Source: a virus
Direction: 5' to 3' (one strand)
DNA length: 64,000 nucleotides
Virus record (IMG/VR): IMGVR_UViG_3300036980_001087
Coordinates: 32,943-96,942 of that record
Shown here: one piece after another, positions 6,792-63,166 of the stretch
Layout of the letters: each line of letters starts with the position of its first letter
How positions within the stretch are numbered: the first letter of the stretch is position 1
Translations under genes and position numbers: made by a program
The notes under the pieces: generated by a model
The model's input: the letters and a program-made list of their open reading frames with translations, nothing else
Told to the model about the DNA's origin: nothing
The model's database searches: none

Positions 6792-7163
6792 TTAGGTCGC
6801 GTATGACTTACGTAATTCCAGTCTGTAAGTTATAAAGCCATCCTGAGTTGATGTGATCTCATAGTTGGTAGCTTTACAACGATTCAAAGTCAAGCCGGAA
6901 ATACCACGGGCCACATCAAAATCAGAAGCCTGCAGCTCAATGTCAACATAGCCATTAGAAAGAATATCCTCGATATCCTCTACTGACCACTCAACATAAT
7001 CCACGGAAATCGTGGTGGCTCTATTTCCTAACTCAACCTCTAACGGATCCGGAAACCCACCAGCATACATGTCCACAGGGCCACCATCGAAACGTACAGA
7101 AATACCGGTACATTTTCCGATGACTTCGGAACCAATGCTGATCTTACCAACGCTAAACTTCAT
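6792..7163 (-). CDS. Tail tube (major tail) protein
   Basis: 123 residues with a strong AGAGGAGGAAACT leader. The sequence is beta-rich with one central helix: KISIGSEVIGKCTGISVRF at the start, then ITYRLELRKSYAT at the end, as in the compact tube fold shared by siphophage and myophage tubes. It comes after the tail terminator and before the chaperones and tape measure, the canonical position. The gene has a higher GC content than its neighbours, as the capsid gene does, which fits high expression. A GTTTTCAAT element lies just upstream at 7203-7211. Confidence 0.75.
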   Translation of the reverse strand: MKFSVGKISIGSEVIGKCTGISVRFDGGPVDMYAGGFPDPLEVELGNRATTISVDYVEWSVEDIEDILSNGYVDIELQASDFDVARGISGLTLNRCKATNYEITSTQDGFITYRLELRKSYAT

Positions 7164-7202: not shown

Positions 7203-7211
7203 ATTGAAAAC
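7203..7211 (-). promoter_or_regulatory. GTTTTCAAT late-strand element upstream of tail tube
   Basis: On the leftward strand the 9-mer GTTTTCAAT occurs 40 bases before the tube start, in the 107-base gap after the terminator gene. The same 9-mer occurs in the gaps at 14777 and 24573. Intergenic space on this strand is small, so the recurrence looks functional, perhaps a late promoter or RNA processing site. Confidence 0.4.
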
Positions 7212-9301: not shown

Positions 9302-9820
9302 TTACCTCCTAATTTTCTTTTTTTCAGTATTACTAAACAACCAGAAGTCCACAAATAATGGCTTTAGGTTTTTAGTTGTAATTAAATGCCTAATAAAGGC
9401 GTTAAAATTTACATGGTTTGATTTAAGCAAGTCCTGCTTAGAAATTACAAAAATTCCACAGTCCGCTATACGTTCATTATCAAAAATAAGATCCCCATTA
9501 GGCTCTACCCTCCAAGTTTTAGAGCCGCGTAACCTTTTAAGAAATACTGCATTTCCCGGTTGTTTACTTGCCAATGCCTCTATCTCCTTAATATTCCCAG
9601 GTAAAACTCTACATCCAAAAGACACTATAATCTGCTGTTCCTCAATGTGGTTACAGATTTCCCTCAATTTATCCATGGTCTTCTCTATGGTGCAGACAGG
9701 ATATTGAGATTCCATTCTAGTAAATACAAAATATTTTCTATCTAGTAATGATAGCAATGCTTTACCAAGAAAATCTACTTCTTGGTCCTGAGTATTAACA
9801 AAAACTATGACTACGGACAT
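9302..9820 (-). CDS. Hypothetical protein, weak nucleotidyltransferase-like fold
   Basis: 172 residues preceded by an AGGAGG site. It begins VVIVFVNTQDQ and has a central strand ending IIVSFGCRVLPGN, then an acidic turn and ADCGIFVISKQDLL, a pattern that recalls sugar-nucleotide transferases. No clear catalytic signature is present. It belongs to the accessory block between the capsid gene and the connectors that also holds the GT9 gene, so a glycan role is possible, but I cannot assign it. Confidence 0.5.
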   Translation of the reverse strand: MSVVIVFVNTQDQEVDFLGKALLSLLDRKYFVFTRMESQYPVCTIEKTMDKLREICNHIEEQQIIVSFGCRVLPGNIKEIEALASKQPGNAVFLKRLRGSKTWRVEPNGDLIFDNERIADCGIFVISKQDLLKSNHVNFNAFIRHLITTKNLKPLFVDFWLFSNTEKKKIRR

Positions 9821-9832
9821 TTGGTCCTCCTA

Positions 9833-10351
9833 TTATTGAAAACTAACTTTGCTTCCCTTTCTTAAATTATCTCCGGCCCACAAAGGTTGTAAGTTTGTAT
9901 AATGAAAACATTTACGTTGTTCTGCTGGTTTGCTCAAATCAAAAGAAGCACAGGGCCTTATATGGTCTACATGCCACTTCCCATAATTCCTCCAGGACAT
10001 GCCTGGTTTAAATTTAGATATAAGATGTTGTTTAAGTTGCTCTATGGAACAACCTAATAATTCTATAGTAGGGGCATCTTTTAAGGACATAGCTATATAG
10101 TTACTTACTCTTCTTCTTAAATTTTTAGTTAATTTAAAATTAATATCTGTTTTATACTTAATTCGTTGATATGCCACTGCCTTTGCATTTATTCTGTCTT
10201 TATTCTTTAAATACCACTTATGACTAAAATTTTTAAACTTGGGTAATAAGTTCTTTTTATGTTTTATATACCAACTATGTTGTAATTTTTTAATTTTTAA
10301 TCTATGTGTAGCTCTATAATTCCTAAGATATAAACTACGTGTTTTATCCAT
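9833..10351 (-). CDS. HNH homing endonuclease
   Basis: 172 residues. A basic N-terminus rich in Lys, Arg, Tyr and His is followed by LLGCSIEQLKQHL, a FKPGMSWRNYGKWHVDHIRP core carrying the HNH active-site histidines, and FHYTNLQPLWAGDN, in which the conserved Asn and the following strand complete the fold. It overlaps the end of the GT9 gene by 8 bases. It is one of four closely related copies in the window, two flanking the GT9 gene and two flanking the FEN nuclease gene. It probably acts as a self-spreading nuclease. Confidence 0.85.
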   Translation of the reverse strand: MDKTRSLYLRNYRATHRLKIKKLQHSWYIKHKKNLLPKFKNFSHKWYLKNKDRINAKAVAYQRIKYKTDINFKLTKNLRRRVSNYIAMSLKDAPTIELLGCSIEQLKQHLISKFKPGMSWRNYGKWHVDHIRPCASFDLSKPAEQRKCFHYTNLQPLWAGDNLRKGSKVSFQ

Positions 10352-11789
10352 TTTTTTTACGTTTTATTGAAAACGCCTTGATTTCCTTAATAAGTAGATC
10401 TGGTGTAAGTACTTTGGTACATGGAGGAGGGTTCCCTTTACGTACTATTGCAGCGCATTCCTTCCATGCCGCTACATCTTTAACCATCTGTCTATCATAA
10501 CAGGGCTTACATTTAAGTGGAGGATATAGGCTTCTAACTAAATTCTTGTGATGGGATACTCTAATGTCCGGATTAATGGTCGTAAACATAACTACACATG
10601 GCTTTTTAAATGCTAAGCCAATCCAGTAAATTCCCGTGTCCATTGATGCTATTTCATCACAGTTATAAACTACTGAGGCCCATTGCCTTATGTTTAATTT
10701 GCCCGTTAGGTTCTTAACATTTGGCCGCTCTAATAATTTTAATGGGGCCTGATCCATAACTATAACGTTATACCTTCCTAATCTATTTAATTTATTTAAT
10801 AATTCATCCCAGTATTCTCGTGGGTAGGACCGATTTTCACTCCCATTAGACATTAAACCTAATGCTAAATTTATTTTACTTGGGTCAATATATTGCCTAC
10901 CAAATTCTATTTCCTCTTCTGTTAATTGCATAACAGGAGTAAAATCTTCAATCTTTTTAACATCTACTCTAAGTAAATCACATATAGAGTCGATTCTACA
11001 ATTTAAATTACGGGTAATTCTGTAATCTTCTAGATTAGTGGCTAAAGTAAAATACCATAAGTAGTCTTTTATTTTTGGTAAGGCATTTAATTTTTCATGT
11101 TGCATTGAACATAATTCATGGGACGTTGAATATATTTTATTAATATAAGGATTATTTTTAAGTAGCTCTGCTCCTGCTTTTCTAACTATATAATCTATCT
11201 TCCACCCATTTTCAGCTAGATATTTTAATGGGATTGTAGTCATTAGAATGTCCCCTAATCCGCGATCTGCGCAATAAGATACTGTATCAAATAATAAAGT
11301 TTTCTGTGCTACTTCTGTAGACTCAACATGTAAAATTGGCTGTAATTCAGATAATATAGCGTCTACATTGGCTAAGGAATCAAATACAGGATCCACCCTC
11401 TTACAATTAAAATCATTTAATTTAGTAAATTTATTTGTAATTTCTAAAGTACTTTTGCCCGAATTAAAAGCTAAACAAAATTTGTGATAGTCTAAAAAAG
11501 CTGTAGGATTAAACCAGGCCCACTCAGAAACAACATACACAATTGATGGGTGTATAAGTATATTGCTAGGAAGTTCATCACAGAAATAAACTACTCCGAA
11601 ATTACGAGCTATAAGCTCTTGAATAAAAGATCTAGGAAACTTATCCCCTGCAATAATAGAACCAAAACCAAGAGCTAGTAAGGTTCCTTCTGGTTCAAAT
11701 ATAGTAGAAGAATTAGATGAGGCCAGTTGATTAGGTTGAATCTTGGAGGCGTAATGGATGGTATACTTCTCTGATATTAGCTTTAGCAT
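10344..11789 (-). CDS. Glycosyltransferase family 9-like protein
   Basis: 481 residues. The C-terminal two thirds carry the GT9 signature: GLGDILMTTIPLKYLAENGW near residues 175-195, then SMDTGIYWIGLAFKKPCV around 385, the region that binds the sugar-nucleotide donor in heptosyltransferases. The N-terminal 150 residues resemble a second, degenerate Rossmann domain. A Cys cluster near the C-terminus (CKPC and a later C) is unusual. It is flanked on both sides by HNH genes and lies in late genes, so it may modify the virion or host surface glycans. No signal or membrane segment is visible. Confidence 0.75.
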   Translation of the reverse strand: MLKLISEKYTIHYASKIQPNQLASSNSSTIFEPEGTLLALGFGSIIAGDKFPRSFIQELIARNFGVVYFCDELPSNILIHPSIVYVVSEWAWFNPTAFLDYHKFCLAFNSGKSTLEITNKFTKLNDFNCKRVDPVFDSLANVDAILSELQPILHVESTEVAQKTLLFDTVSYCADRGLGDILMTTIPLKYLAENGWKIDYIVRKAGAELLKNNPYINKIYSTSHELCSMQHEKLNALPKIKDYLWYFTLATNLEDYRITRNLNCRIDSICDLLRVDVKKIEDFTPVMQLTEEEIEFGRQYIDPSKINLALGLMSNGSENRSYPREYWDELLNKLNRLGRYNVIVMDQAPLKLLERPNVKNLTGKLNIRQWASVVYNCDEIASMDTGIYWIGLAFKKPCVVMFTTINPDIRVSHHKNLVRSLYPPLKCKPCYDRQMVKDVAAWKECAAIVRKGNPPPCTKVLTPDLLIKEIKAFSIKRKKNG

Positions 11790-11797
11790 CTTTACCC

Positions 11798-12331
11798 TTA
11801 TACTTTAAAAAATTTATTTTTCTTTAAATTATCTTTTGCCCATAAAGGTTGTAAATTAGTATAATGGAAACACTGTTTTTGTTTATCCGGCTTACTAAGA
11901 TCAAAAGAAGCACAGGGCCTAATATGATCTATGTGCCACTTACCATAATTGCTCCAGGACATACCAGGTTTGAATTGTTTCTCTAAATGCTGTTTAAGTT
12001 GTGAAATAGTACATCCTATTAAATTTAAAGTTACTGTAGTTTTAACGTTTCTTTTTAGTGCCCACCATATTCTACTTGATAAATAATGACGTAATTTAAA
12101 ATTTAAATCTCGTTCCCTTCTTAATTTACGTTTTAGATTTATTTCTTTTTTATGTATTTTATAATAAAATTTATCGGTTTTCTTGATTTGTTCCTGGTGG
12201 GTATTACGATATAACTTGTGGTGGGATTTAATTTTCTCTTTGTTTACCTGATAATATACGGCATGCTCGAGTTTATGTTTTTGTTTATGTAATGTATTAT
12301 ATTGTTTATTATAGCTTGTTCTATTAAACAT
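11798..12331 (-). CDS. HNH homing endonuclease
   Basis: 177 residues, paralogue of the gene at 9833. The first 100 residues are very basic and Tyr/His/Lys-rich (DNA-binding). The nuclease core is LIGCTISQLKQHLEKQFKPG, followed by SWSNYGKWHIDHIRP and HYTNLQPLWAKDN. It is the first gene after the capsid terminator hairpin and has a TAGAGG ribosome-binding site. It likely mobilises together with its GT9 neighbour. Confidence 0.85.
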   Translation of the reverse strand: MFNRTSYNKQYNTLHKQKHKLEHAVYYQVNKEKIKSHHKLYRNTHQEQIKKTDKFYYKIHKKEINLKRKLRRERDLNFKLRHYLSSRIWWALKRNVKTTVTLNLIGCTISQLKQHLEKQFKPGMSWSNYGKWHIDHIRPCASFDLSKPDKQKQCFHYTNLQPLWAKDNLKKNKFFKV

Positions 12332-14776: not shown

Positions 14777-14785
14777 ATTGAAAAC
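14777..14785 (-). promoter_or_regulatory. GTTTTCAAT late-strand element upstream of protease
   Basis: Read leftward, GTTTTCAATTAGTAGAGAGG lies 20 bases before the protease start, with the last part serving as ribosome-binding site. The first nine bases match the elements at 7203 and 24573. Candidate late promoter or processing site opening the head module. Confidence 0.4.
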
Positions 14786-24060: not shown

Positions 24061-24411
24061 TTAAGAAGTACGTTTTGTAGCGTCTGCGTTAAAAGTAATT
24101 ACTCCTGCAACTATGGTCTCTACTACTGTCCCATGTTTAATCTGGATATCATAATAATAATCACCCAGTAAATTAGTATCTGCTGGAAGTAAATTTATGG
24201 TTGTCTTTCCATGGGTAGGATCTGTGTGCACAGTAATGGTTTTTACTATTTGAGCATGTGTATCGTCGGCAGCCTCTAAGTTATCTGTAACTGTGAAGAA
24301 TACAGTCCATCCAGTTATATCTTTAGCCACTCCAGAGCCATCTGTAAACTCTAATAAATAAGACTTACTATCTCCCCTGGTAATTTCTAAATTTTCACTT
24401 TGAACAGACAT
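24061..24411 (-). CDS. BppU-like virion protein
   Basis: 116 residues. It has an ITRGDSKSYLLEF start, DITGWTVFFTVTD, a DPTHGKTTINLLPAD turn and a YYYDIQIKHGTVVETIVAGV strand. These match the N-terminal beta-sandwich of BppU/upper-baseplate proteins and related fibre anchors. It is the first gene of the leftward block. It would anchor adsorption fibres to the tail. The leader upstream carries a GTTTTCAAT element at 24573-24581. Confidence 0.65.
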   Translation of the reverse strand: MSVQSENLEITRGDSKSYLLEFTDGSGVAKDITGWTVFFTVTDNLEAADDTHAQIVKTITVHTDPTHGKTTINLLPADTNLLGDYYYDIQIKHGTVVETIVAGVITFNADATKRTS

Positions 24412-24572
24412 AACTCCACCTCTATGTTTAAAATTTTAGCTCGCTACCTATCTTACTTATTTCAGCCCTAACTAGGGTCAATGAAAAGGATCAAGTCCCG
24501 TTGCAGAAGGCCCTGTCATGAACAGGATTTTCGGCAGCAAGCTGAATCTAATAATTCTCTTTTTCCTCTATA

Positions 24573-24581
24573 ATTGAAAAC
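24573..24581 (-). promoter_or_regulatory. GTTTTCAAT late-strand element in divergent region
   Basis: Read leftward: GTTTTCAATTATAGAGGAAA, 162 bases before the first late gene. It aligns with the copies at 14777 and 7203 over the first nine to twelve bases. It could be the start point for the whole leftward block. Confidence 0.4.
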
Positions 24582-25124: not shown

Positions 25125-25152
25125 TTGACAAAACAATTTTTTGTGCTATACT
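25125..25152 (+). promoter_or_regulatory. Early sigma-70-like promoter
   Basis: TTGACA (25125-25130), a 16-base spacer and TATACT (25147-25152) with an extended -10 TGC directly before. It is followed by an A-rich leader containing GTTGCC and GGCAAC arms and then the first early gene at 25251. It is the strongest of a set of similar promoters at 37173, 39814, 41253 and 59920. Confidence 0.75.
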
Positions 25153-25250
25153 TTCTATGTTGCCAAAACAACAAAAAAACAAAAAAACAGGCAACCAGCA
25201 AGGCTATATTATAACCCAACCCAAAGCAACAAAACAGAAAGGATATTACT

Positions 25251-36499: not shown

Positions 36500-36570
36500 A
36501 ATAAGTACTATATATTCCCCGGAGGGGCCCCTAAGATATATTATATACCAAATTTAGGGTATATGTAAGT

Positions 36571-37172: not shown

Positions 37173-37201
37173 TTGACAAATTACAAATTATATGTTATAC
37201 T
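37173..37201 (+). promoter_or_regulatory. Sigma-70-like promoter
   Basis: TTGACA (37173-37178), a 17-base spacer and TATACT (37196-37201) preceded by TGT. The next gene starts at 37220 after AAAGGAG. It matches the promoters at 25125 and 39814 almost exactly. Confidence 0.75.
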
Positions 37202-37219
37202 TAACAAAAGGAGTTTAAT

Positions 37220-39813: not shown

Positions 39814-39842
39814 TTGACAAACAGCAATTTATATGTTATACT
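39814..39842 (+). promoter_or_regulatory. Sigma-70-like promoter
   Basis: TTGACA (39814-39819), a 17-base spacer, TATACT (39837-39842) preceded by TGT. The flanks match the 37173 promoter over the -10 and downstream (ATATGTTATACTTAACA). The next gene starts at 39861. Confidence 0.75.
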
Positions 39843-39860
39843 TAACACAAGGAGGAAACT

Positions 39861-41252: not shown

Positions 41253-41280
41253 TGGATTATTTTTAGAAATATGCTATACT
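41253..41280 (+). promoter_or_regulatory. Promoter for early collagen-like gene
   Basis: TGGATT (41253-41258), a 16-base spacer and TATACT (41275-41280) preceded by TGC. The sequence around it matches the promoter at 59920 (TTGGT, GATTATTTT, AAATATG, TATACTT), so the two form a subtype with a weak -35 and an extended -10. Confidence 0.6.
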
Positions 41281-41308
41281 TTAACTGACAAAACAAAGGA
41301 GGAAGTAA

Positions 41309-47309: not shown

Positions 47310-48212
47310 ATGAATCTAAATGGTACAATTCAAATAGTAAAGGGCTTGATTGACCTACCGCATAATAAGTTTAATCTTAGTAATTATAGATTTATATTGG
47401 AGGATAAGGTGCCTTATATAAATTTTGAAAGTATGCCTTCCGATTCTCCTATACAGTTAATGTCCGGACGAAATTATAATTCTGGATTAATTAGAATACT
47501 TCCCCGTAAAGTTTCCGATCAAGGTAATATCTATATCATAGGCAAAGGAATTCTTTTTGATTCTGGAGGCCTAGACCTAAAAAGAAGTATGGTGGACATG
47601 TCAAATGATAAAGCGGGCATGCTTATTGCAGTAGCAATAGCTGATTATTTTCACGATGCCCCTAAGGGAGTATTTGCTTGTTGCCCCGTTACTACCAACT
47701 TTGTACAAAACAGTTTGATAATTCCCGGAGATATATTAACTATTGGTAAAAAGGAAGTAAAGATTACTAATACAGATGCAGAGGGTAGATTAATTCTTGC
47801 CGAGGCACTAACTGCTTGTAAATTACAGAAAAAAGATATCGTAATTACCATTGCTACTCTTACTGGAGCTGTGGAAGGAGCAATAGATAAGCGGGCCACT
47901 GGGGTATTTGGTACTAATGATGTATTAGTTAATCAGTATCTTACTGCAGCTACTCAAGTTAAAGAATTAGCTTGGAGACTACCCCTTTGGGCGGATCTTG
48001 AAAAAGCATATTATAAGGGAAATAAAATTAAGAATTATGTTAAAGAAATTAAGGCTGGTGCTACAGAGGCTGCTTTATTTGTAAAACAATTTGTTCCGTA
48101 TCCTGAAAATTGGATCCACTTAGATATCGCAGCTTCTGCATTTGATAAAAATAATAAAGCAAATGGAGTACCAATTAAATCCTTAGTAAGATTTATTGAA
48201 AATTTAAAATAA
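47310..48212 (+). CDS. M17-type leucyl aminopeptidase, catalytic domain
   Basis: 300 residues after TAAGGAGGAGTAA. GKGILFDSGGLDLKRSMVDM and NTDAEGRLILAEAL are the M17 signatures. The metal and catalytic residues Lys79, Asp84, Lys91, Asp100, Asp156, Glu158 and Arg160 are all present. Cellular enzymes have about 480-500 residues with an N-terminal domain; here only the catalytic lobe remains. Cytoplasmic hexamers remove N-terminal residues from peptides. Unusual in a phage. Confidence 0.85.
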   Translation: MNLNGTIQIVKGLIDLPHNKFNLSNYRFILEDKVPYINFESMPSDSPIQLMSGRNYNSGLIRILPRKVSDQGNIYIIGKGILFDSGGLDLKRSMVDMSNDKAGMLIAVAIADYFHDAPKGVFACCPVTTNFVQNSLIIPGDILTIGKKEVKITNTDAEGRLILAEALTACKLQKKDIVITIATLTGAVEGAIDKRATGVFGTNDVLVNQYLTAATQVKELAWRLPLWADLEKAYYKGNKIKNYVKEIKAGATEAALFVKQFVPYPENWIHLDIAASAFDKNNKANGVPIKSLVRFIENLK

Positions 48213-48642: not shown

Positions 48643-48660
48643 TTGGTATATAATATATAG
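48643..48660 (+). promoter_or_regulatory. TATAAT-type promoter candidate
   Basis: TTGGTATATAATATATAG starts two bases after the stop of the preceding gene. A TTGAAT box 18 bases upstream of TATAAT fits a sigma-70 promoter. The GGTATATAATATA core is repeated at 55924 and 58979. Confidence 0.45.
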
Positions 48661-49922: not shown

Positions 49923-50521
49923 TGGAAAATATAATTACCCCAGAATTTCAGGAATTTAAAAAGATCCCTAGATTTAGTAGGGATATAATTATTACTGAAA
50001 AACTGGATGGGACCAATGGTGTAATTTATATTGGTGAAACTGGAGAATTTCTGGTAGGATCAAGGTCCAGATGGATTACACCAACAGATGATAATCATGG
50101 TTTTGCTAGATGGGCCTATGATAATAAAGAAGAGTTATTAAAATTAGGTCCTGGATGGCATTATGGAGAATGGTGGGGTAGTGGAGTAAATAGAGGATAT
50201 GGACTTATTAAAGGGGAAAAAAGATTTTCTCTTTTTAATTCTGGGCGATGGGTAAAGAAAACCGCTGACAACATCTCCCCGCTTGGGGAGAAACAAGAAT
50301 ATTGCCCTGATTGTTGTTATGTTGTGCCTATTTTATACCAGGGTATATTCCATTCAACTATGATCTTTAATGCCTTAGGTATTTTGGAAGAGAAGGGAAG
50401 TTTAGCTTCTCCAGGATTTATGAATCCGGAGGGGATAGTTATTTATCATGTTGCTGCAAGACAATATTTTAAAAAGACTATTAAAAATGACGACATGCAT
50501 AAAGGTGAAATAAGTGGCTAA
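49922..50521 (+). CDS. RNA ligase (Rnl2-like)
   Basis: 199 residues. ITEKLDGTNG is motif I with Lys27 as the nucleotidylated residue. GEWWGSG is motif IIIa-like, PEGIVIYH is motif IV and FKKTIKND is motif V. It has no C-terminal specificity domain beyond the core. It probably seals breaks made in tRNA or other RNA, as T4-type ligases do. It starts as TAATG after the protease gene. Confidence 0.8.
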   Translation: MENIITPEFQEFKKIPRFSRDIIITEKLDGTNGVIYIGETGEFLVGSRSRWITPTDDNHGFARWAYDNKEELLKLGPGWHYGEWWGSGVNRGYGLIKGEKRFSLFNSGRWVKKTADNISPLGEKQEYCPDCCYVVPILYQGIFHSTMIFNALGILEEKGSLASPGFMNPEGIVIYHVAARQYFKKTIKNDDMHKGEISG

Positions 50522-51110
50522 GTATTGCACACACTGTAAACGAACTAGAGATATAAAGTTTTTCTCTAAAACTAAAACTGAGAAGGACGGACATCAATAT
50601 GTTTGTAAGCAGTGTGTTGCAATATATAAAAGAGCACATTATAAAAAGAACCGTGTAAAATTATTAGAACAACATAAAAAGTATTATGTATTACATAGGA
50701 ACGAACGTATTTTATCTGCCAAAAACTATACTAGTAAACATCAGGAGCAACGAAAAGTGTATGTCCGTCAATGGCATAGAGAAATGTGCCATACTAATAT
50801 AAATTATCATATATTACAAAACCTTCGGAGACGACTTAACCATGCCTTACATGGCGCTTTAAAGGCCACGAATACAGTAAGTTTACTTGGTTGTTCTATT
50901 GAGCAGTTAAAACAGCACCTTGAGAAACAATTTAAACCCGGCATGACTTGGAATAATTACGGTAGGGTTGGTTGGGTAATTGACCACATTAAACCCTGTG
51001 TTAGTTTTAATTTTATTAACCCAGAAGAACAAAAGAAGTGTTTCCACTATACTAATTTACAACCTCTATGGTATGTAGATAATCTTAGAAAAGGCAAACA
51101 TGCAAGATAA
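50514..51110 (+). CDS. HNH homing endonuclease with zinc finger
   Basis: 198 residues with a GTG start overlapping the ligase stop. The N-terminus has CTHCKRTRDI and a second Cys pair (VCKQC). The nuclease core is LLGCSIEQLKQHLEKQFKPG, then WVIDHIKPC and HYTNLQPLWYVDN. The 'WVIDHI' form differs slightly from the other three copies. Its end overlaps the FEN gene, which it may invade. Confidence 0.85.
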   Translation: MAKYCTHCKRTRDIKFFSKTKTEKDGHQYVCKQCVAIYKRAHYKKNRVKLLEQHKKYYVLHRNERILSAKNYTSKHQEQRKVYVRQWHREMCHTNINYHILQNLRRRLNHALHGALKATNTVSLLGCSIEQLKQHLEKQFKPGMTWNNYGRVGWVIDHIKPCVSFNFINPEEQKKCFHYTNLQPLWYVDNLRKGKHAR

Positions 51111-51879
51111 ACAAATTCTCTGCATTGATTTTAGTGAGCTCTTCTTCAGTTCAATATTTGGCTGGAGAAGAGCTTGTCAAATGGGCAATAAGTTACCATT
51201 AGAATTTATGGTACTTAAGAAGTTATTTTCCTATTGCAAAGCATTTCCAGGTAGAGAAATATATATCATGTGTGATGGTACAAAGACCTGGCGTAAAGAA
51301 GTATATCCTGAATATAAAGCACAACGTAAAGAACAGAGGGATAAGTATGAAGATCTAGACTGGACTGATCTTTTTGCTAGATATGGCCAGATGATTAGTG
51401 CCATAGAGAACTTCACTCCTATGCTTACTTTTAGGGACGATATACTTGAGGCTGATGATCTTGAGGCCATCTTAGCTAAGGATGGGGAAGACCTTATTAT
51501 CTTTTCATCTGATAAAGACCTTAACCAATTAACTACTTATTCCAATCTTAAACTAGTATCTCCTAAAGGTAAAAAAGTAAAGGGTAAATTTGTTTTTAAA
51601 GTTGTGGAGGATCCGCTTAAAGAACTAGATAAACTTGTGATGAAGGGGGATCGTTGTGATAATGTTCCACGTGCTTCTTCCGAAGCACAGAGAATGATAA
51701 ATAATAAAATAGTTAACCTCATTAATCTACCTAAAAATATTGAGGATAGATGTAGAGCAGTACTTAATCAAAAAAGATGTAAATCCCCTGACTTAATTGG
51801 CTTTTGTAACCTTTACCGGTGGGATTTCGTAGGCATTGAATTAAAGAGAATTTATCCTGGGTATTTTAAAAATGAATAA
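51100..51879 (+). CDS. FEN-like 5'-3' exonuclease
   Basis: 259 residues. The acidic core shows LCIDFSELFF, IYIMCDGTKTWRKEVYPEYK with KAQRKEQRDK (arch), EADDLEAILA, FSSDKDLNQL and MKGDRCDNVPRA, matching T4 RNase H/FEN-type enzymes that remove RNA primers and flaps. The helix-hairpin-helix region follows. It is bracketed by two HNH genes, with overlaps of 11 and 8 bases, so the intact enzyme lies between selfish elements. Confidence 0.85.
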   Translation: MQDKQILCIDFSELFFSSIFGWRRACQMGNKLPLEFMVLKKLFSYCKAFPGREIYIMCDGTKTWRKEVYPEYKAQRKEQRDKYEDLDWTDLFARYGQMISAIENFTPMLTFRDDILEADDLEAILAKDGEDLIIFSSDKDLNQLTTYSNLKLVSPKGKKVKGKFVFKVVEDPLKELDKLVMKGDRCDNVPRASSEAQRMINNKIVNLINLPKNIEDRCRAVLNQKRCKSPDLIGFCNLYRWDFVGIELKRIYPGYFKNE

Positions 51880-52459
51880 TAGACAACAATACATGCAAAT
51901 TTGGAGAAACCTGCATAGTACACACATTAAAATGTATGGATTACATTATCGTAAGACACATAAAGTAACAATACAGAAATATAGACTGAAGCATAAAGGT
52001 GAATATTATAAATTACATAAAAAAGAACATCAACTATGGGCAAAGGCCTATTATAAAAGTCGTTCTGATTACTTTAAGAGACTCCAGAGTAAGTATCAAA
52101 AGACACACAAAGTACAGTATAATAAATACCGTAGAGAACGAAGAATTGATGACATTAATTTTAAATTAAGATATTATTTAAGTAATCGTATTAGAGGATG
52201 TTTAAAACTTAAATATAAATTTACACATTTTAACAATCTACTTGGTTGTTCTGTAGAACAACTTAAACAACACTTAGAACAACAATTTAAACCAGGTATG
52301 TCTTGGGAGAATTACGGTTATTATGGTTGGCATATAGATCATATTAGGCCCTGTGCTTCTTTTGATCTTAGTAAGCCAGATAAACAAAAACAGTGTTTCC
52401 ATTATACTAACTTGCAACCTTTGTGGGCAAAAGATAATATGTCAAAGGGAAGTCGTTAA
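51872..52459 (+). CDS. HNH homing endonuclease
   Basis: 195 residues, start overlapping the FEN stop. A very basic Lys/Tyr/His-rich first 100 residues; nuclease core LLGCSVEQLKQHLEQQFKPG, WHIDHIRPCASFDLS and FHYTNLQPLWAKDN. Closest to the copy at 11798. Adjacent to the FEN gene on its downstream side. Confidence 0.85.
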   Translation: MNNRQQYMQIWRNLHSTHIKMYGLHYRKTHKVTIQKYRLKHKGEYYKLHKKEHQLWAKAYYKSRSDYFKRLQSKYQKTHKVQYNKYRRERRIDDINFKLRYYLSNRIRGCLKLKYKFTHFNNLLGCSVEQLKQHLEQQFKPGMSWENYGYYGWHIDHIRPCASFDLSKPDKQKQCFHYTNLQPLWAKDNMSKGSR

Positions 52460-52746: not shown

Positions 52747-53031
52747 ATGGTAGAATTAAAACAATATAAAGTTTCGTTTGAAGTACTCTGTAATTGTTCA
52801 GATAACCGTACTATTAAAGGTCTATTGGGGCATTTTGAACGTACTAATCCACAGGAACACGGGAAAGGCACCATATATAAATATATTTGTTCTAAATGTG
52901 GACAGGTACACCTCACCTTAGAACATTATACCTGTACTTTGGTACTAGATATTAATAGCACTGATAAATTGTGTAGCCATTGTACCGGTTTAATTATGCA
53001 ATTAAATCTTGCTGAATATGGAGGTGCTTGA
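52747..53031 (+). CDS. Zinc-binding protein
   Basis: 94 residues. Several Cys/His clusters (CNCSDNRT, CSKCGQVH, CSHCTG) and beta strands between suggest a compact zinc domain. Its last stop codon overlaps the start of the deformylase gene (TGATG). Confidence 0.6.
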   Translation: MVELKQYKVSFEVLCNCSDNRTIKGLLGHFERTNPQEHGKGTIYKYICSKCGQVHLTLEHYTCTLVLDINSTDKLCSHCTGLIMQLNLAEYGGA

Positions 53032-53471
53032 TGTCCGTTAGACCAATTGTAACCGATCGTAGAGAATTATCTAGGCCTTGTGGAAAAGTACTTGATGGAG
53101 AAGATATTTCCCAAATCATTCAGGACCTAAAAGATACATTTGAGCCTCTTAAGGGACGTGGCTTTGGATTAGCTGCCAATCAGATTGGCTATAATAAAGC
53201 AGTGGCCTATATAGTTTTTGCTGGGCAAGAGTATATTATTATAAATCCTATAAAGTTAGAGGCTAGGATGCCCATTCCATTTAAGGAGGGCTGCTTTAGT
53301 TTTAGTGGACTTGAGATCAAGACCTCCCGTTATAATTACTTTAAAATTAAACATGGACTAGGAGAAGGAAAGGAAGAGGAGTTTAAGGGTCTATTAGGGA
53401 TAGTTGTGCAGCACGAGGTAGATCATTTAAATGGCATAACTTTATTTCAAAGACGCTGGAGAGCTAAATAA
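53031..53471 (+). CDS. def: Peptide deformylase
   Basis: 146 residues from the ATG at 53031. All three family motifs are intact: GFGLAANQIG (44-53), EGCFSF (86-91, metal-binding Cys88) and QHEVDHLNG (His128, Glu129, His132). Shorter than cellular enzymes at the C-terminus. It removes the formyl group from nascent proteins. Peptide deformylases are known in some marine phages; here it lies next to membrane-protein and transporter genes. Confidence 0.9.
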   Translation: MSVRPIVTDRRELSRPCGKVLDGEDISQIIQDLKDTFEPLKGRGFGLAANQIGYNKAVAYIVFAGQEYIIINPIKLEARMPIPFKEGCFSFSGLEIKTSRYNYFKIKHGLGEGKEEEFKGLLGIVVQHEVDHLNGITLFQRRWRAK

Positions 53472-54273: not shown

Positions 54274-54590
54274 CAAGTGCCAATAGATTTTGGTTAGCTT
54301 GGACAATACTTATCCTTTTATGGGCTTTTTTATGCACTAGTAATATTTTTGCTATGACATTTAAAGAATATATTAATCAGCCAATTACTATTACAGAGAC
54401 TAAGGGAGAATTGAGATTAAAGTGGCATAATTTTTTTGGTTGTGATTTATTTAAGCCTTATTTTGCAATCAAAGATCTAGAAGATTCCTTTACTGTATTC
54501 ACAGCATTAGATCTCGGAAGATTAAAGGGGCGATTGCATTTTGGAAATAACTATAAGTCGATAGAATATAAATTTAAATATGAATTCTAA
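54270..54590 (+). CDS. Secreted small protein
   Basis: 106 residues with an N-terminal signal peptide (WLAWTILILLWAFLCTSNIF, then an A before M). The mature part is beta-rich with LRLKWHNFFGCDLFKPYF. It overlaps the transporter gene. It may be exported to the periplasm or cell surface. Confidence 0.6.
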   Translation: MTSANRFWLAWTILILLWAFLCTSNIFAMTFKEYINQPITITETKGELRLKWHNFFGCDLFKPYFAIKDLEDSFTVFTALDLGRLKGRLHFGNNYKSIEYKFKYEF

Positions 54591-55731
54591 AGTTAGATTA
54601 GTCTTTGGATTATCTATACTTACATATTTTATTCAGGGGGTTGAGGGCCTCCCAGGACAAAGTTTATTTGTCTTTATGAAGACAAAGCTAGGCATGACTC
54701 CACAAGCAATCATGTGGTTTGGTACATTTATAGGCATAGCCTGGCTTATAAAGCCAATCATAGGTGCCTTAATAGACAAACTATTTGGAAAGAAATGGTG
54801 GTATTTTGGGGCCGTCCTGCTAAGTATGGGCGCATGTGCTCTTTTAGCTAGATTAAGCCTTCCAATCGTGCTCCTAGGCTGTTTGTTAGCCCTTTTAAGC
54901 ACGGCTGCCAGCATTAGGGACATTTCGGTAGACGGAATAGCAGTTTGTTCAGGTAAGACTGAGGGCATTTGTGATAAATTACAATCTGTGCAGTGGATTG
55001 CAGTAACTATTGGAGGTCTCTTGGTAGGTATCGGGGGAGGACTTATAGCACAGTACCTACCTTACCAAGTGGGATTTGCAATACTTATTCCTCTATATGC
55101 AATAGCTGGAATGTTAATACTTAAATATAAACCTGAACAAAAAGAATGCCAAGTTACAATGCATTCAGTAATACAACTATTTAAAGATAAACGATTTATA
55201 TTAACTTGTCTTTTTATATTTCTTTATAAATATAGTCCGTCCTTTGGCACGCCCTTAGGCTTTATTATAAGGGATAAATTTCATTGGTCAGAAATTTTTA
55301 TTGGCGTACTTGGTACAATAACTGCAGTAACTAGTATCATCGGAGCCTTAATATATTATAGGGTATCTAAAAGAATAGATGCAAAAAAATGGATCACTAT
55401 TTCAATTTGGTTAGGGGCCATTACTACATTATTTTATCTTTATTATACTCGTTATACTGCAATAGGTTATGATGTTGTGTTTAGTTTAACTGGAATGTTT
55501 TTTCATTTAATAATTATGACATTCATGGCTGAGAATTCAGTTACCGGCCTAGAGACCACTTCTTTTGCTACACTATGTGCCATAAGTAATTTAGCAGGTA
55601 CAGCAGGAAGCGCTTCAGGAGCATTGTTACTTCCCATCATAGGCTTACCTGGATTAATTATTCTATCAGCATCCACATCATTTCTTTGTCTACCATTAGT
55701 ACCAATTATATTTAAGAAGAGTAATGTTTAA
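54580..55731 (+). CDS. MFS-type transporter, BT1 (folate-biopterin) group-like
   Basis: 383 residues with about eleven or twelve hydrophobic helices. It opens YFIQGVEGLPGQSLFVFMKT and has IRDISVDGIAVCSG with LQSVQWIAVTIGG further on, close to the pattern conserved in folate/biopterin transporters. The middle loop is charged and short. Transporter genes are rare in phages. It starts within the previous gene and is followed by a small gene with a 1-8 base overlap. The substrate is inferred by family resemblance only. Confidence 0.7.
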   Translation: MNSKVRLVFGLSILTYFIQGVEGLPGQSLFVFMKTKLGMTPQAIMWFGTFIGIAWLIKPIIGALIDKLFGKKWWYFGAVLLSMGACALLARLSLPIVLLGCLLALLSTAASIRDISVDGIAVCSGKTEGICDKLQSVQWIAVTIGGLLVGIGGGLIAQYLPYQVGFAILIPLYAIAGMLILKYKPEQKECQVTMHSVIQLFKDKRFILTCLFIFLYKYSPSFGTPLGFIIRDKFHWSEIFIGVLGTITAVTSIIGALIYYRVSKRIDAKKWITISIWLGAITTLFYLYYTRYTAIGYDVVFSLTGMFFHLIIMTFMAENSVTGLETTSFATLCAISNLAGTAGSASGALLLPIIGLPGLIILSASTSFLCLPLVPIIFKKSNV

Positions 55732-55921: not shown

Positions 55922-55940
55922 TTGGTATATAATATAGGAT
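55922..55940 (+). promoter_or_regulatory. TATAAT-type element, copy 2
   Basis: TTGGTATATAATATAGGAT directly after the stop codon, 11 bases before the next gene. Shares GGTATATAATATA with 48643 and 58977. The -35 region is poor, so it is less certain. Confidence 0.4.
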
Positions 55941-57405: not shown

Positions 57406-57993
57406 ATGGATATTTCAACAGTACTTAATGGAATTAAAGCTATACCTTCTACTACTACCGTAGAAGAGTGTATGCTACTTTATTCTTATGTTAAACAATT
57501 AGAACCAAATGCTATAATTGTAGAATTAGGCACTGGATTAGGTAGAACTACGGCCGCTATGGCTTATGCATGTATAGGCTCTAGTAGAAAAATTTATACC
57601 ATAGATAATTATTCCCAGGCCACTAGATTTACACAAGTGGTTAAGTCAGATTGGTCACTGACTGCAGCACAAGAGAATTTAAAAAGACTAAACTTAGATG
57701 AGCATGTTGTTTTTTTAAATTATACTACTACAGATCCAGCCCTGTTAACAATAATACCTACCCCAATTGATATGGTATTTATAGATGCAACCCATACTTA
57801 CCAGGAAGTCGTAAATGATATTAATTTTTGGAAAGCCGTACTTAGAATGAATGGAATAATGTGTGGCCACGATTGGGGCCTAGAGTGCTCAGATGGAAGA
57901 GAAGTAATTAAAGCAGTAGCAGATACAGTATTAGACCCTGCACATAACTTTGAAGTGCAGCATAAAATATGGAAATGTAGGAGATACTGGTAA
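57406..57993 (+). CDS. SAM-dependent methyltransferase (type-24-like)
   Basis: 195 residues. VELGTGLGRTT (motif I, near 45-55), KIYTIDNYSQ (acidic strand 2), IDMVFIDATHTYQEVVNDIN and GIMCGHDWG match the Methyltransf_24 subgroup often found with sugar-modification genes. It precedes the pyruvyl transferase gene with a one-base overlap, so both likely act on the same glycan. Confidence 0.8.
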   Translation: MDISTVLNGIKAIPSTTTVEECMLLYSYVKQLEPNAIIVELGTGLGRTTAAMAYACIGSSRKIYTIDNYSQATRFTQVVKSDWSLTAAQENLKRLNLDEHVVFLNYTTTDPALLTIIPTPIDMVFIDATHTYQEVVNDINFWKAVLRMNGIMCGHDWGLECSDGREVIKAVADTVLDPAHNFEVQHKIWKCRRYW

Positions 57994-58979
57994 TGGTTTA
58001 CGCCTTTGGTGCTTATGGTACTAATAATATTGGGGATGAAGCTATATTTGCTGGATTAAAGCATGAATATCCAGACGCAATACAAATATATGTAAACAAG
58101 CCCTGGTCCTGGTCCCCAACCGCAAATCTTCCCATATGGTATGCAGATTTTCTTACAGGAGTGTGTAAATTTACTAAAGAGGACACCCTTATAATTGGTG
58201 GTGGTGGATTATTGCACAGCCTTAAGGCCGTAAATGACTATTATACAATGGCCTCTTTAGTAACTGAAGCGGGAGGTAAAGTTTTAATTGAAGGTATTGG
58301 GGCTGAGGGAATTCAATCTAGCTACAAAGATATTGTTAAGCAACTTTTAAGTCTGGCTAGCCATATCTCTGTTAGAACTACTACATCTAAAGACTTATTA
58401 CAGCCATTAACCAAAAATAAAATAGACGTGCGTAAAGACTTTGCATATTCTATGGCTACAAAATCTAATACTCCTGGTCCCCTATCAACACAACGGTATA
58501 TTGGAATTGTGGTTGGTGGGGCCGAAGATTTACATGTTTATGATGAACTTAGCAACTTATTAGCAAAGTATACAGTTGGACCAGAGCATTATAATTTTTT
58601 ATTGATACCTCATTCAATTTCTTATACAAATCCAATGAATAATGATCTATTAATCTTCCAGTATTTATGGTCTAATTGTAATATTTATCATGCTAAACGT
58701 GAGGAACGAATTTATATTTTAGATTATACTCCACATGATCCAGAAGAGGCCCTTAATTTATACAAGGATTTAATGCTTGGATGTATTGGATGGAGATATC
58801 ACTCTTTAATATTTAGTGAGATGGCCAATGTTCCAATGCTATTAGCTGCACCTACATTTAAGAACATGGCCTATGTTAAAGACGTTAAAAGATCCAACTT
58901 AATTGTAAAGCAGAGCAATGAAACTTTAGAGCAGGCATTTAATAATTTTATACCATTACTTGCAGTTCAACAATTTTAG
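57993..58979 (+). CDS. Polysaccharide pyruvyl transferase-like protein
   Basis: 328 residues. FGAYGTNNIGDEAIFAGL at the start, TLIIGGGGLLHSL near 67-79 and GWRYHSLIFSEMANVPML near 268-285 are the three landmarks of the pyruvyl transferase (CsaB/WcaK) family. It would add a ketal-linked pyruvate to a cell-envelope or capsid-associated glycan. Co-transcribed with the methyltransferase. Confidence 0.75.
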   Translation: MVYAFGAYGTNNIGDEAIFAGLKHEYPDAIQIYVNKPWSWSPTANLPIWYADFLTGVCKFTKEDTLIIGGGGLLHSLKAVNDYYTMASLVTEAGGKVLIEGIGAEGIQSSYKDIVKQLLSLASHISVRTTTSKDLLQPLTKNKIDVRKDFAYSMATKSNTPGPLSTQRYIGIVVGGAEDLHVYDELSNLLAKYTVGPEHYNFLLIPHSISYTNPMNNDLLIFQYLWSNCNIYHAKREERIYILDYTPHDPEEALNLYKDLMLGCIGWRYHSLIFSEMANVPMLLAAPTFKNMAYVKDVKRSNLIVKQSNETLEQAFNNFIPLLAVQQF

Positions 58980-58995
58980 GTATATAATATATGGT
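58977..58995 (+). promoter_or_regulatory. TATAAT-type element, copy 3
   Basis: TAGGTATATAATATATGG overlaps the stop codon of the pyruvyl transferase gene and the start codon of the next. TTGCAG 17 bases before TATAAT could be a -35. It is one of three copies. Confidence 0.4.
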
Positions 58996-59919: not shown

Positions 59920-59947
59920 TTGATTATTTTGGTAAATATGTTATACT
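59920..59947 (+). promoter_or_regulatory. Promoter of the sigma-like gene unit
   Basis: TTGATT (59920-59925), a 16-base spacer and TATACT (59942-59947) preceded by TGT. It opens a two-gene unit that ends in an intrinsic terminator at 60534. Same subtype as the promoter at 41253. Confidence 0.65.
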
Positions 59948-59966
59948 TATACTGGAGGAAAAGAGA

Positions 59967-60134
59967 ATGAAGATTCAAGGAAGCTCACCTACAAGCATCA
60001 TAAAGAATGGCTTTTTCCAGGGAAAGAACTCAATACAGGTCTTTCTTATGGTTAAAGACCAATATCCTCATTATGATGATAAGAAGTTGAGAAAATTGAT
60101 CTCCGTTCTTAAGAGCAAGTTTATCAAAAAATAG
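59967..60134 (+). CDS. Small basic protein upstream of sigma-like gene
   Basis: 55 residues from the ATG at 59967 after GGAGGAAAAGAGA. MKIQGSSPTSIIKNGFFQG and a basic helix end (KLRKLISVLKSKFIKK). It could be a DNA-binding or partner peptide of the next gene product. Unassigned. Confidence 0.55.
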   Translation: MKIQGSSPTSIIKNGFFQGKNSIQVFLMVKDQYPHYDDKKLRKLISVLKSKFIKK

Positions 60135-60142
60135 GAGGACTT

Positions 60143-60514
60143 ATGAGTACAAAGACAGTTGACTCTATTGTCTCCGCTCTCCAGTCTAAGAAGGGGATTA
60201 GTAATAAGGACTATCAGAGGGTATATAGGGTGTGTAAGAAGGTATCAAGTAAAGTGTTTAATCAATATGGCATGAATTCCATTGTACATAATCCCCACCT
60301 TAAAGAAGAAATTATTGAGGACGTAGCTACTATGTCTTTAGTAAAATCTATTAAGGGATTTAATCCAGAGAAGAAGGCTAAGTTCTTTACTTATTACTAT
60401 AATAAAGCAAGATCAGCTACTAGAGTGCATGCTATGAAGTGCCATCGCAGGTACCATTTGATTAATGCAAGTAGTCTGGATGCTTTTAATGATAAGGAAT
60501 CACAAGAGGACTAA
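60143..60514 (+). CDS. Sigma-70 region-2-like protein
   Basis: 123 residues. The central stretch LKEEIIEDVATMSLVKSIKG, then FNPEKKAKFFTYYYNKAR and SATRVHAMKCHRRYH, resembles sigma-factor region 2: the E-E-I/L-x-x-x-A helix, the F-x-P-E-K...F-x-T-Y core of 2.2-2.3 and a basic 2.4-like helix. No region 4 is present. It is made from its own promoter and ends at a terminator. It may redirect RNA polymerase to late promoters. The assignment is tentative. Confidence 0.55.
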   Translation: MSTKTVDSIVSALQSKKGISNKDYQRVYRVCKKVSSKVFNQYGMNSIVHNPHLKEEIIEDVATMSLVKSIKGFNPEKKAKFFTYYYNKARSATRVHAMKCHRRYHLINASSLDAFNDKESQED

Positions 60515-60533
60515 GCAAGAACTAATAAATAAG

Positions 60534-60550
60534 AAGCCCAACGGGCTTTT
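60534..60550 (+). terminator. Intrinsic terminator after sigma-like gene
   Basis: AAGCCC-AAC-GGGCTTTT: a six-pair stem with a U-tract, 20 bases after the stop codon. It closes the sigma-like transcription unit before the SLOG/primase genes. Confidence 0.7.
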
Positions 60551-60561
60551 AGATAGGATAT

Positions 60562-60933
60562 ATGCGTTTACTAATTTGTGGTGATAGGAATTGGACAAAC
60601 AAGGAATTAATCTTAGATGTTGTACGAGCAATAAGACCTAAGCCTAAAGTGATTATTAGTGGTGGTGCACAAGGTGCAGATAAATTAGCTGCTGAAGTAG
60701 CTATAGAATTAAAGATTCCATTGCAAGAATTTCTAGCTAAATGGGAACAATTTGGTAAAGCGGCAGGACCAATCCGAAATCAAACTATGTTACGGGAAGG
60801 ACAGCCTACATTAGTTATTGCATTCCATGATGATATAAAAAATTCAAAAGGAACTGCACATATGCTTTATATCGCTAAATATAATAAAATTAAAACTCGT
60901 CTATACACTACGAAAGGTTTAGTCAATGATTAA
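60562..60933 (+). CDS. DUF2493/SLOG-family protein
   Basis: 123 residues. MRLLICGDRNWTNKELILDV at the start and IISGGAQGADKLAAEVA near 30-50 are the hallmarks of the YspA-type SLOG domain (Rossmann-like, nucleotide-binding). Small enough to be just the domain. It probably binds or processes a nucleotide. It overlaps the primase-helicase start. Confidence 0.75.
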   Translation: MRLLICGDRNWTNKELILDVVRAIRPKPKVIISGGAQGADKLAAEVAIELKIPLQEFLAKWEQFGKAAGPIRNQTMLREGQPTLVIAFHDDIKNSKGTAHMLYIAKYNKIKTRLYTTKGLVND

Positions 60934-63166
60934 AAATCTAGGAGAAACCATAGAGGCCCTCAAGCCCCATCTTAAAAAGTACCTTCTTGCTAAAGGCACC
61001 CAATTTAAAGGCAGACTATTCCAATGTCCCAATAGGAATGCTCACCGTAACCAGGATGTCAAGCCGGGATGTAATTTCCTAGATAAGGACGAAAGTAAAT
61101 TTTATTGTTATGTCTGTGGTGCCACTGGGGATATCTTTGATGCAGTACATCTACTTGAAAATAGGCAAGTTACAGGTGCCGGATTTCACGATACAGTAGA
61201 GTATTTATGCAAGATAACTAAAGTGCCTTATGCCTTGGCCGAGGATACTCCTGAGTCTCAATTCATGCAGGAAGTTGAATCTTTCCTTGATGCTCTTGTT
61301 TCTAGGGCACATACAAATCTTAAAAATTTAGTAACTACTGAACCTACCCATCCAGCAGTAAAATTATTACAGACTAAGGGGTGGTTAGGAAGTGTTGATA
61401 CTTATAGGTTAGGGATTATCCAGGCAGTAAAAGAGCCCAAAGTTCAGAAATTAAAGGACGTATGCAATTTTTTAAACCTTAACTTGAATGATCTAGTCAA
61501 TGGAATTATTATTCCTATTGAATTTAAGCATAAGTTAATAGGGTTTCAGATTAGAGCCACAGAATTAAATACTTTAAGTGGGATGAAATATAAGACTTAT
61601 CTTTCCACTAATAAAGGGCTCTTTAATCTTGATAATATTGATCCTTCCCAAACCGTTTATATGGTGGAAGGGGCATCTTCCATTATTGTAATGCACAATT
61701 ATGGCCTTGATAACGCTGTAGCTACCTTAGGTAATGGAATTAATGATGCTCACTATGAGGCCCTTATTACTAAAGATATTAAAGATGTCTGCTTAATGTA
61801 TGATAATGATGATGGTGGAGACATTGGTAGAAAACGTGCCTGCGAGACATTTGTAGGAAAGAATGAGATCAAGCTTAGTTTTAAATTACTTACTAAAGAA
61901 AATGATCCTGCAGATTTCTTATTAGCCAACCATAAATTTGATGAATTACCTACTCTTAGTTTATGGGATTATCTTTTGCATAAGGGGTATAAGGAATTAA
62001 TGTTAAAGTATGTGGCTGCTCAACAGGATTTAATTGATAAAGAGCGCCTGGTAGGCATCTTATCAAAAGAGTTGGATGTAACCAAAGCCGTATTAATGGA
62101 AGAGATCCATAAATATGAGAGCACTTTAAGTGAAGTTCCTACCATCATGTCACTTAAAGAAAAGGAATCCATCATTGAGACAATCAATAGTTTTGAGAAG
62201 TGGGCCTGGAGTAGAGGAGAGCTCCTTGGAATTAAATCTTTTGATTGTTTTGATAAAAGTTTTGATGGATTACAGGAAGGTTTGATCTTGGTAGGTGGTG
62301 CGCCTAACGTAGGGAAGTCTGCTCTAACCACTTCAATAGCCTGTAGAATTATGGAAACTACAGCCAATGCTTATATTATTTATTTAAGTATTGATGATTC
62401 TGCTATCATTACCACAGCAAGATTTCTTGCTAATCTATCTGGTATTCCTATTAATATAGTCTCCAATCCCAAACATAGGATTGTTGACAATAAATATTAT
62501 ACGGATGCAGAAAAGAAAGACTTAATGGTTCGCAGGGAGAAGGCTCTGGAATATATGCGTAAGCATGTAGCTGTATTTAATTTGAAAGACGCCTCCAGTG
62601 GTTATACAATAGAGTACCTTAATACTTTATTTAAATCACTTGAGCCCATAATTAAGGATAAGAAGGTAGTTTTAATAGTGGATAATCTGCACAAGCTTCG
62701 CAGCCTTAAAGAATACAAAAGTGATAAGTCTTTAGTAGATTCAGTGTGTAATAATCTAAAGATACTTTCTGGAATTTATAAATGTCCTGTAATTGCTACA
62801 GTGGAGCATACTAAGGCCTCAATTCAATTAGGAGAAATTGGTGGATCAGCTATAAAAGAATCTTCGTCTTTGCATTATGATGCTAATTTAATATTAACTG
62901 TAGTTGTGAAGCAGGTAGTAGGCGCATTTAAATTAATCGACGTCATGGTTAGTAAGAATAAAATGAGCACCTTTATAGGGGCAATGCCTTTTAGATTATA
63001 TCCTGATCAGTCTAAAATGGAAGAATGTGGTGCCACGCAAGGTAACTTTGGAACTAATTTAGGAGGGCAAGATGGACCAGCAGATAAAATGGAAGGTACT
63101 GGAACGACAGATAAACTTAATCAAGACTCCAGAGATTCAACAGTTTGTGAAGGAGACCCTAAATAA
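60926..63166 (+). CDS. Primase-helicase
   Basis: 746 residues. A CHC2-like zinc finger (Cys34, His40, Cys61, Cys64), then a Toprim region with MVEGASSI near 244 and LMYDNDDGGDIG near 289, then a RecA-type helicase domain with VGGAPNVGKSALTT (Walker A, about 453-466), YLSIDDS, VVLIVDNLH (Walker B, near 580) and VIATVEHTKA. Architecture is that of T7 gp4 or similar phage primase-helicases. It primes and unwinds DNA at the fork. Its C-terminal 95 bases overlap the HD gene. Confidence 0.9.
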   Translation: MIKNLGETIEALKPHLKKYLLAKGTQFKGRLFQCPNRNAHRNQDVKPGCNFLDKDESKFYCYVCGATGDIFDAVHLLENRQVTGAGFHDTVEYLCKITKVPYALAEDTPESQFMQEVESFLDALVSRAHTNLKNLVTTEPTHPAVKLLQTKGWLGSVDTYRLGIIQAVKEPKVQKLKDVCNFLNLNLNDLVNGIIIPIEFKHKLIGFQIRATELNTLSGMKYKTYLSTNKGLFNLDNIDPSQTVYMVEGASSIIVMHNYGLDNAVATLGNGINDAHYEALITKDIKDVCLMYDNDDGGDIGRKRACETFVGKNEIKLSFKLLTKENDPADFLLANHKFDELPTLSLWDYLLHKGYKELMLKYVAAQQDLIDKERLVGILSKELDVTKAVLMEEIHKYESTLSEVPTIMSLKEKESIIETINSFEKWAWSRGELLGIKSFDCFDKSFDGLQEGLILVGGAPNVGKSALTTSIACRIMETTANAYIIYLSIDDSAIITTARFLANLSGIPINIVSNPKHRIVDNKYYTDAEKKDLMVRREKALEYMRKHVAVFNLKDASSGYTIEYLNTLFKSLEPIIKDKKVVLIVDNLHKLRSLKEYKSDKSLVDSVCNNLKILSGIYKCPVIATVEHTKASIQLGEIGGSAIKESSSLHYDANLILTVVVKQVVGAFKLIDVMVSKNKMSTFIGAMPFRLYPDQSKMEECGATQGNFGTNLGGQDGPADKMEGTGTTDKLNQDSRDSTVCEGDPK

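Follow-up and report, generated by a model that had tools for sequence, protein, structure and literature searches.

A putative minimal sigma factor and three classes of promoter-like elements in a virus genome

The two-gene unit and the one relative found

Two short genes lie in tandem behind a host-type promoter sequence in the window, i.e., the 64,000-nt stretch of DNA analysed here, which spans positions 32943-96942 of a virus record with 96,942 bases. The first codes for a basic protein of 55 aa, the second for a protein of 123 aa with similarity to sigma factors (Table 1). The two ends of the record have an overlap of about 823 bases, 92% identical; thus, the record is probably near complete. 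The viral collection contains one syntenic relative, the 95,374-base contig G001. Scans of the viral contigs with the sigma-like protein, its alignment, the primase-helicase, the capsid protein, the DNA polymerase and the class M motif described below returned solely G001 and one fragment of 7 kb, which carries a polymerase 28% identical. Genome contigs searched with the capsid query contained no relatives. In the annotated phage collection neither the capsid protein nor the DNA of the locus found a match; the sigma-like protein had weak local matches and the primase-helicase remote ones. Enterocloster phage PMBT24 was considered as a close relative and rejected, since its matching protein is a sigma factor of the ordinary kind, in which both region 2 and region 4 are present. 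Evidence from conservation is thin because it comes from a single relative, and the two genomes share ancestry and are not independent.

Both reading frames, taken as genes in the first-pass annotation of this DNA, are indeed real genes. Each is kept in G001, and the differences between the two genomes fall preferentially on the third positions of codons (30 of 58 in the 55-aa gene, 67 of 123 in the 123-aa gene). Translation of the two genes appears to be coupled, since the 55-aa gene has its stop codon within the Shine-Dalgarno sequence of the 123-aa gene. Family searches with the 55-aa protein gave no match. Its descent from a common ancestor with another protein of the window was considered and discarded, since the best paralog candidate reached only E 0.5. 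Speculatively, the 55-aa protein may be a co-transcribed partner and possible co-factor with a gp33-like role.

The promoter ahead of the unit, TTGATT-N16-TATACT, is real, though not by the statistics of a single match: 8 promoter-like matches were found in the region against 16.9 in shuffled sequences, i.e., a lone match is not above chance. Its reality follows from conservation in G001 and from the recurrence of TGYTATACTT in the window. The intergenic stretch of G001 keeps TTGATTATTTT and ATGTTATACTT, that is, both hexamers and the extended -10 TG, and the flanking bases differ. Presumably this promoter drives the 55-aa and the 123-aa genes.

The downstream end of the unit presents another picture. 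The hairpin AAGCCC-AAC-GGGCTT is genuine and rare by chance, yet it is not the perfect intrinsic terminator it was taken for. The tail on the + strand has only a short, interrupted T run (TTTTAGAT, the last two stem bases included), the match of a terminator scan falls on the - strand, and the fold is unremarkable (z -0.76). G001 has no such hairpin; there, the stop codon of the sigma-like gene overlaps the start codon of the next gene. A terminator as a conserved feature is therefore rejected. Of the isolated unit described earlier, the promoter of its own remains and the closed downstream end does not; probably the unit runs on into the replication genes.

Table 1. Features of the two-gene unit and promoter-like elements in the window. 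Numbers in brackets are positions in the relative G001.
Feature	Position	Strand	Remarks
Class E promoter TTGATT-N16-TATACT, extended -10 TG	59920..59948	+	kept in G001; one of five sites of this class in the genome
55-aa basic protein, pI 10.2	59967..60134	+	60% identity to homolog in G001; no family match
123-aa putative sigma protein, region 2 only, pI 9.7	60143..60514	+	64% identity to homolog in G001
Inverted repeat AAGCCC-AAC-GGGCTT	60534..60548	.	weak + strand terminator candidate; absent from G001
Class E TTGACA-N16-TATACT, head of rightward arm	25125..25153	+	kept in G001
Class E TTGACA-N17-TATACT	37173..37202	+	
Class E TTGACA-N17-TATACT	39814..39843	+	
Class E, shares GATTATTTT...ATATGYTATACTT with promoter of the unit	41254..41281	+	
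Class M TTGGTATATAATATA	48643..48657	+	kept in G001 (15980)
Class M TTGGTATATAATATA	55922..55936	+	kept in G001 (22676)
Class M TAGGTATATAATATA	58977..58991	+	about 1.2 kb upstream of sigma-like gene; kept in G001 (25824)
Class L GTTTTCAAT, head of leftward arm	24573..24581	-	same place in G001 (86195)
Class L, upstream of prohead protease gene (then major capsid protein)	14777..14785	-	same place in G001 (78571)
Class L, 3' end of 481-aa gene	10366..10374	-	next gene 23 b on; same region in G001 (74710)
Class L GTTTTCAATAATAGGAGG	9835..9843	-	23 b ahead of 172-aa gene 9302-9820; no exact counterpart in G001
Class L, upstream of 123-aa gene 6792-7163, neck/tail region	7203..7211	-	variant GTCTTCAAT in G001 (71980)

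Similarity of the 123-aa protein to sigma factors

The family libraries point to sigma in both genomes. Among Pfam families the 123-aa protein matches a single one, Sigma70_r2 (PF04542), with 15.7 bits and E 0.013, short of the curated cut-off of 24 bits; indeed no score reached its curated cut-off. The homolog in G001 likewise matches Sigma70_r2. In NCBIfam the window protein matches four families and the G001 homolog twelve, every one of them sigma (best E for the window protein 5.4e-4). In six-frame scans of both genomes PHROG 351, 'RNA polymerase sigma factor', reached E 4.7e-5 with the window reading frame and 1.1e-4 with its homolog, and neither this profile nor Sigma70_r2 matched anything else. 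With phmmer, 8b3z, a sigma factor of RNA polymerase, was retrieved from the PDB at E 0.008. The alignments place the core, EEIIEDVATMSLVKSIKGFNPEKKAKFFTYYYNKAR, in regions 2.1-2.3. The similarity is below threshold, yet exclusive, in the register of these regions and common to the protein and its homolog. As a yardstick, five gp55 proteins were scored on Sigma70_r2: T4 gp55 obtained 13.1 bits, two others 18.3 and 18.8, and two remained below detection. A proven sigma factor, T4 gp55, scores lower than the 123-aa protein, and a sub-threshold score is therefore normal for sigma factors this divergent. The region-2-like features reported from the letters alone are borne out in this way. Overall the first-pass view of the unit is partly confirmed and now stands on firmer footing. 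On these family matches the 123-aa protein is very probably a sigma factor.

Roughly residues 24-104 correspond to regions 2.1-2.4, followed by a short acidic tail, NASSLD(A/E)(F/Y), which is kept in both homologs. Sigma70_r4, i.e., region 4, had no match above cut-off in either genome. AlphaFold models computed from one and from two sequences are all-helical and poor (pLDDT 47 and 61), and with Foldseek neither found a sigma structure in the PDB or among viral models. No structural match to a sigma factor was obtained because the models are poor, and such matches as were returned are meaningless. The best match lies in regions 2.2-2.3, the promoter-recognising region 2.4 aligns poorly and the scores are weak, as would befit a degenerate region-2 domain that inhibits or appropriates the polymerase by sitting on its beta-prime clamp helices and itself recognises no promoter. 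However, the basic helix in the position of region 2.4 (residues 88-104) is partly kept (R90, T93, R94, H96, R102, R103), and the late-specific element described below needs a reader. We consider such an inhibitor improbable.

A sigma factor confined to region 2 had been thought unusual. It is not without precedent: there are T4 gp55 and phiEco32 gp36, the latter lacking region 4. In T4 gp55 similarity to sigma factors is confined to domain 2; with 185 aa it was the smallest member of the sigma family as of 2010, it has conserved N- and C-terminal segments including a tail that binds the sliding clamp, and it works with gp33 and the clamp gp45 as partners (PMC2988020). The 123-aa protein shares with it the small size, the similarity restricted to domain 2, the weak profile scores and, probably, a late switch via the host core polymerase. 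It is shorter still, a ranking which refers to the 2010 statement (PMC2988020). When aligned to a gp55 profile with hhalign, the segments of regions 2.1-2.2 are in register at E 0.011, a value for a single comparison, with a probability of only 3.8%. The N-terminal motif of gp55 (invariant Y10, V11) is absent from both homologs. Searches of both genomes with two families of sliding clamps gave no match, the second search lacking a good positive control. Late promoters of the gp55 family read TATAAATA, whereas the late element here is GTTTTCAAT. We do not file the protein with gp55 because the N-terminal motif is missing, the promoter differs and a sliding clamp was not found.

The gp36 protein of phiEco32 has no region 4 and uses a single element from which transcripts start 6-8 b downstream; its promoters, tAATGTAtA, serve middle and late genes, and early genes are transcribed via host sigma70 (PMC8948821). 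From this description it is like the 123-aa protein in that region 4 is undetected, the elements are single without a -35 and early genes are host-type. It differs in using one element for middle and late genes, whereas here these two elements are distinct. Phages of the phiEco32 type were not among the matches of the sigma-like protein in the annotated phage collection. SPO1 has a cascade of gp28 and gp33/gp34, phage-coded specificity factors which define early, middle and late classes of two-part promoters. Going by this general description, the likeness to the present genome lies in the early, middle and late classes and the difference in the two-part promoters that the SPO1 factors use.

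Three classes of promoter-like elements

Comparing the upstream regions of both genomes yielded three classes. Class E consists of TTGACA or TTGATT and TGYTATACTT at a distance of 16-17 b, a two-part promoter of the host sigma70 type. Its sites precede rightward genes, the sigma unit among them. In the window TGYTATACTT occurs five times versus 0.56 expected, every time on the + strand; each of the two genomes has five copies, all rightward and none in late regions. Because the promoter of the unit belongs to this host-type early class, the 123-aa protein should precede the late genes. The sites at 41254-41281 and 59920-59948 have in common an unusually long conserved block, GATTATTTT...ATATGYTATACTT, which G001 likewise carries at two distinct loci. 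The block may be an operator besides being a promoter.

Class M ('middle') is a strict single element, TTGGTATATAATATA, ahead of rightward genes that include those for replication and recombination. Six sense-strand sites are present per genome in matching places. A TATAAT/TATATA box of host-like appearance is part of the element; in the majority of copies the sequence is TG-N-TATATA, which resembles an extended -10. One antisense site occurs in both genomes (window 36537-36551, - strand; G001 3013, - strand). It lies within the rightward arm, is followed by a GC-rich hairpin and is a possible promoter of an antisense or small RNA. A conserved -35 element was detected at neither class M nor class L sites.

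Class L is the 9-bp element GTTTTCAAT, found ahead of the portal gene and of the leftward units for prohead protease/capsid, neck and tail. The window genome has seven exact copies, each on the sense strand of a late region, and none elsewhere (0.28 expected). In G001 the late regions contain five copies and one variant, GTCTTCAAT; another two copies are strays outside these regions. In an unbiased count of the 9-mers up to 60 b ahead of genes, GTTTTCAAT was the most frequent for late genes, with nine occurrences versus none for early genes. The element was discovered and counted in the same data, a circularity which is softened by a test across genomes: with a weight matrix derived from one genome, six late sites are the top six matches in the other. 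Some late genes with upstream gaps have no GTTTTCAAT element. We infer that GTTTTCAAT and TTGGTATATAATATA are promoters.

The spacing of class L deserves attention. Several copies are a mere 21-29 b from start codons, immediately 5' of the Shine-Dalgarno sequence, as one would expect if GTTTTCAAT were an operator, or a signal acting in late mRNAs at the RNA level, and had nothing to do with the sigma similarity. Yet other copies are 43-48 b upstream, the copy that precedes the first long leftward gene of the window genome is 170 b away from it, and the element keeps to one strand and to late regions. We regard an operator or RNA signal as rather unlikely compared with a promoter.

The stretch that separates the first leftward gene from the first late element (24411-24581) is a conserved block. 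It matched no Rfam family at gathering score; in G001 it contains an open reading frame of 43 aa, which in the window genome is interrupted by an in-frame stop.

A possible switch to late genes

Which of the two single elements would the 123-aa protein read? For host sigma70 the second base of the -10 box has to be an A. Class L is without this A-11, whereas class M holds a TATAAT/TATATA box, and for this reason we favour class L over class M. That GTTTTCAAT sites are the targets of the 123-aa protein is, on balance, probable. The earlier suggestion that the protein could drive the leftward late genes has gained a late-specific element in both genomes; recognition of this element by the protein is the inferred part of it.

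The opposite assignment, in which the region-2-only sigma factor reads class M TTGGTATATAATATA and another factor serves the late GTTTTCAAT, has its own merits. Class M, too, is a single element without a conserved -35 and extremely strict, and one of its sites lies upstream of the sigma-like gene (Table 1). T4 gp55 uses an AT-rich single element. So does phiEco32 gp36 (PMC8948821). Against this, the host sigma could suffice for class M with its host-like, mostly TG-N-TATATA box, and class L, without such a box, is the class most in need of a new specificity factor. A search for a phage-coded single-subunit RNA polymerase, a candidate reader of class M, gave no match, and control genomes were equally silent in that search. 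We judge class M as the target of the 123-aa protein to be unlikely, albeit the most serious competitor.

Alternatively, one phage sigma factor might serve the middle and late classes, its preference being shifted by the 55-aa protein or by some further factor. In phiEco32 a single element allows gp36 to serve middle and late promoters alike (PMC8948821). In the present genomes class M and class L sites have, in some cases, common flanks (GGTA before, TAGTAGG after), and the 55-aa protein is co-encoded with the sigma-like protein. The cores of the two classes, however, differ (TATAATATA versus GTTTTCAA), and the common 3' flank may be a mere Shine-Dalgarno sequence. The chances of a single factor for both classes appear slim.

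We therefore return to class L as the target and propose the following sequence of events. Host RNA polymerase with the host primary sigma factor would read class E promoters early and thus supply both proteins of the unit. Through region 2.2, the 123-aa protein would bind the beta-prime clamp helices of the host core polymerase. The resulting holoenzyme is predicted to open single-element promoters with the core GTTTTCAAT, and a -35 element would not be needed because the protein has no region 4. The portal gene and the leftward operons for capsid and tail, all behind GTTTTCAAT, would then be switched on, bringing packaging, capsid and tail genes into expression. That a minimal, region-2-only sigma factor and its 55-aa partner redirect the host polymerase to GTTTTCAAT late promoters has, in our estimation from the genomic evidence, somewhat better than an even chance. 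A two-piece system, composed of the 123-aa factor with a translationally coupled 55-aa partner and a 9-bp GTTTTCAAT, operating without region 4, -35 element or sliding clamp within three promoter classes, is put forward tentatively and is rather doubtful.

Sigma factors normally need several domains. Should the 123-aa factor be sufficient to open promoters specifically, it would set the lower limit of what recognising and melting a promoter takes, and it would be a compact orthogonal transcription tool. The early-to-late switch would be compact and is testable. Equally testable is the map of gene timing which the three motif classes provide for a phage lineage to which none of the annotated phage records searched is closely related.

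The long open reading frames scanned resemble replication, packaging or tail proteins, or remain without assignment. Four related proteins resembling HNH homing endonucleases are distributed across both arms (9833-10351, 11798-12331, 50514-51110, 51872-52459); the two that were scanned had no Pfam match. The primase-helicase of G001 (L002 6729-11285) has two intein-like insertions which are absent from the window copy (60926-63166). A methyltransferase and a polysaccharide pyruvyl transferase form a pair (57406-58979) directly upstream of the class M site that precedes the sigma unit. A phage-coded membrane transporter of the BT1/MFS type (54580-55731) is kept in G001. Further, the window codes for a leucyl aminopeptidase (M17; 47310-48212) and a peptide deformylase (53028-53471), possibly a set for protein maturation.
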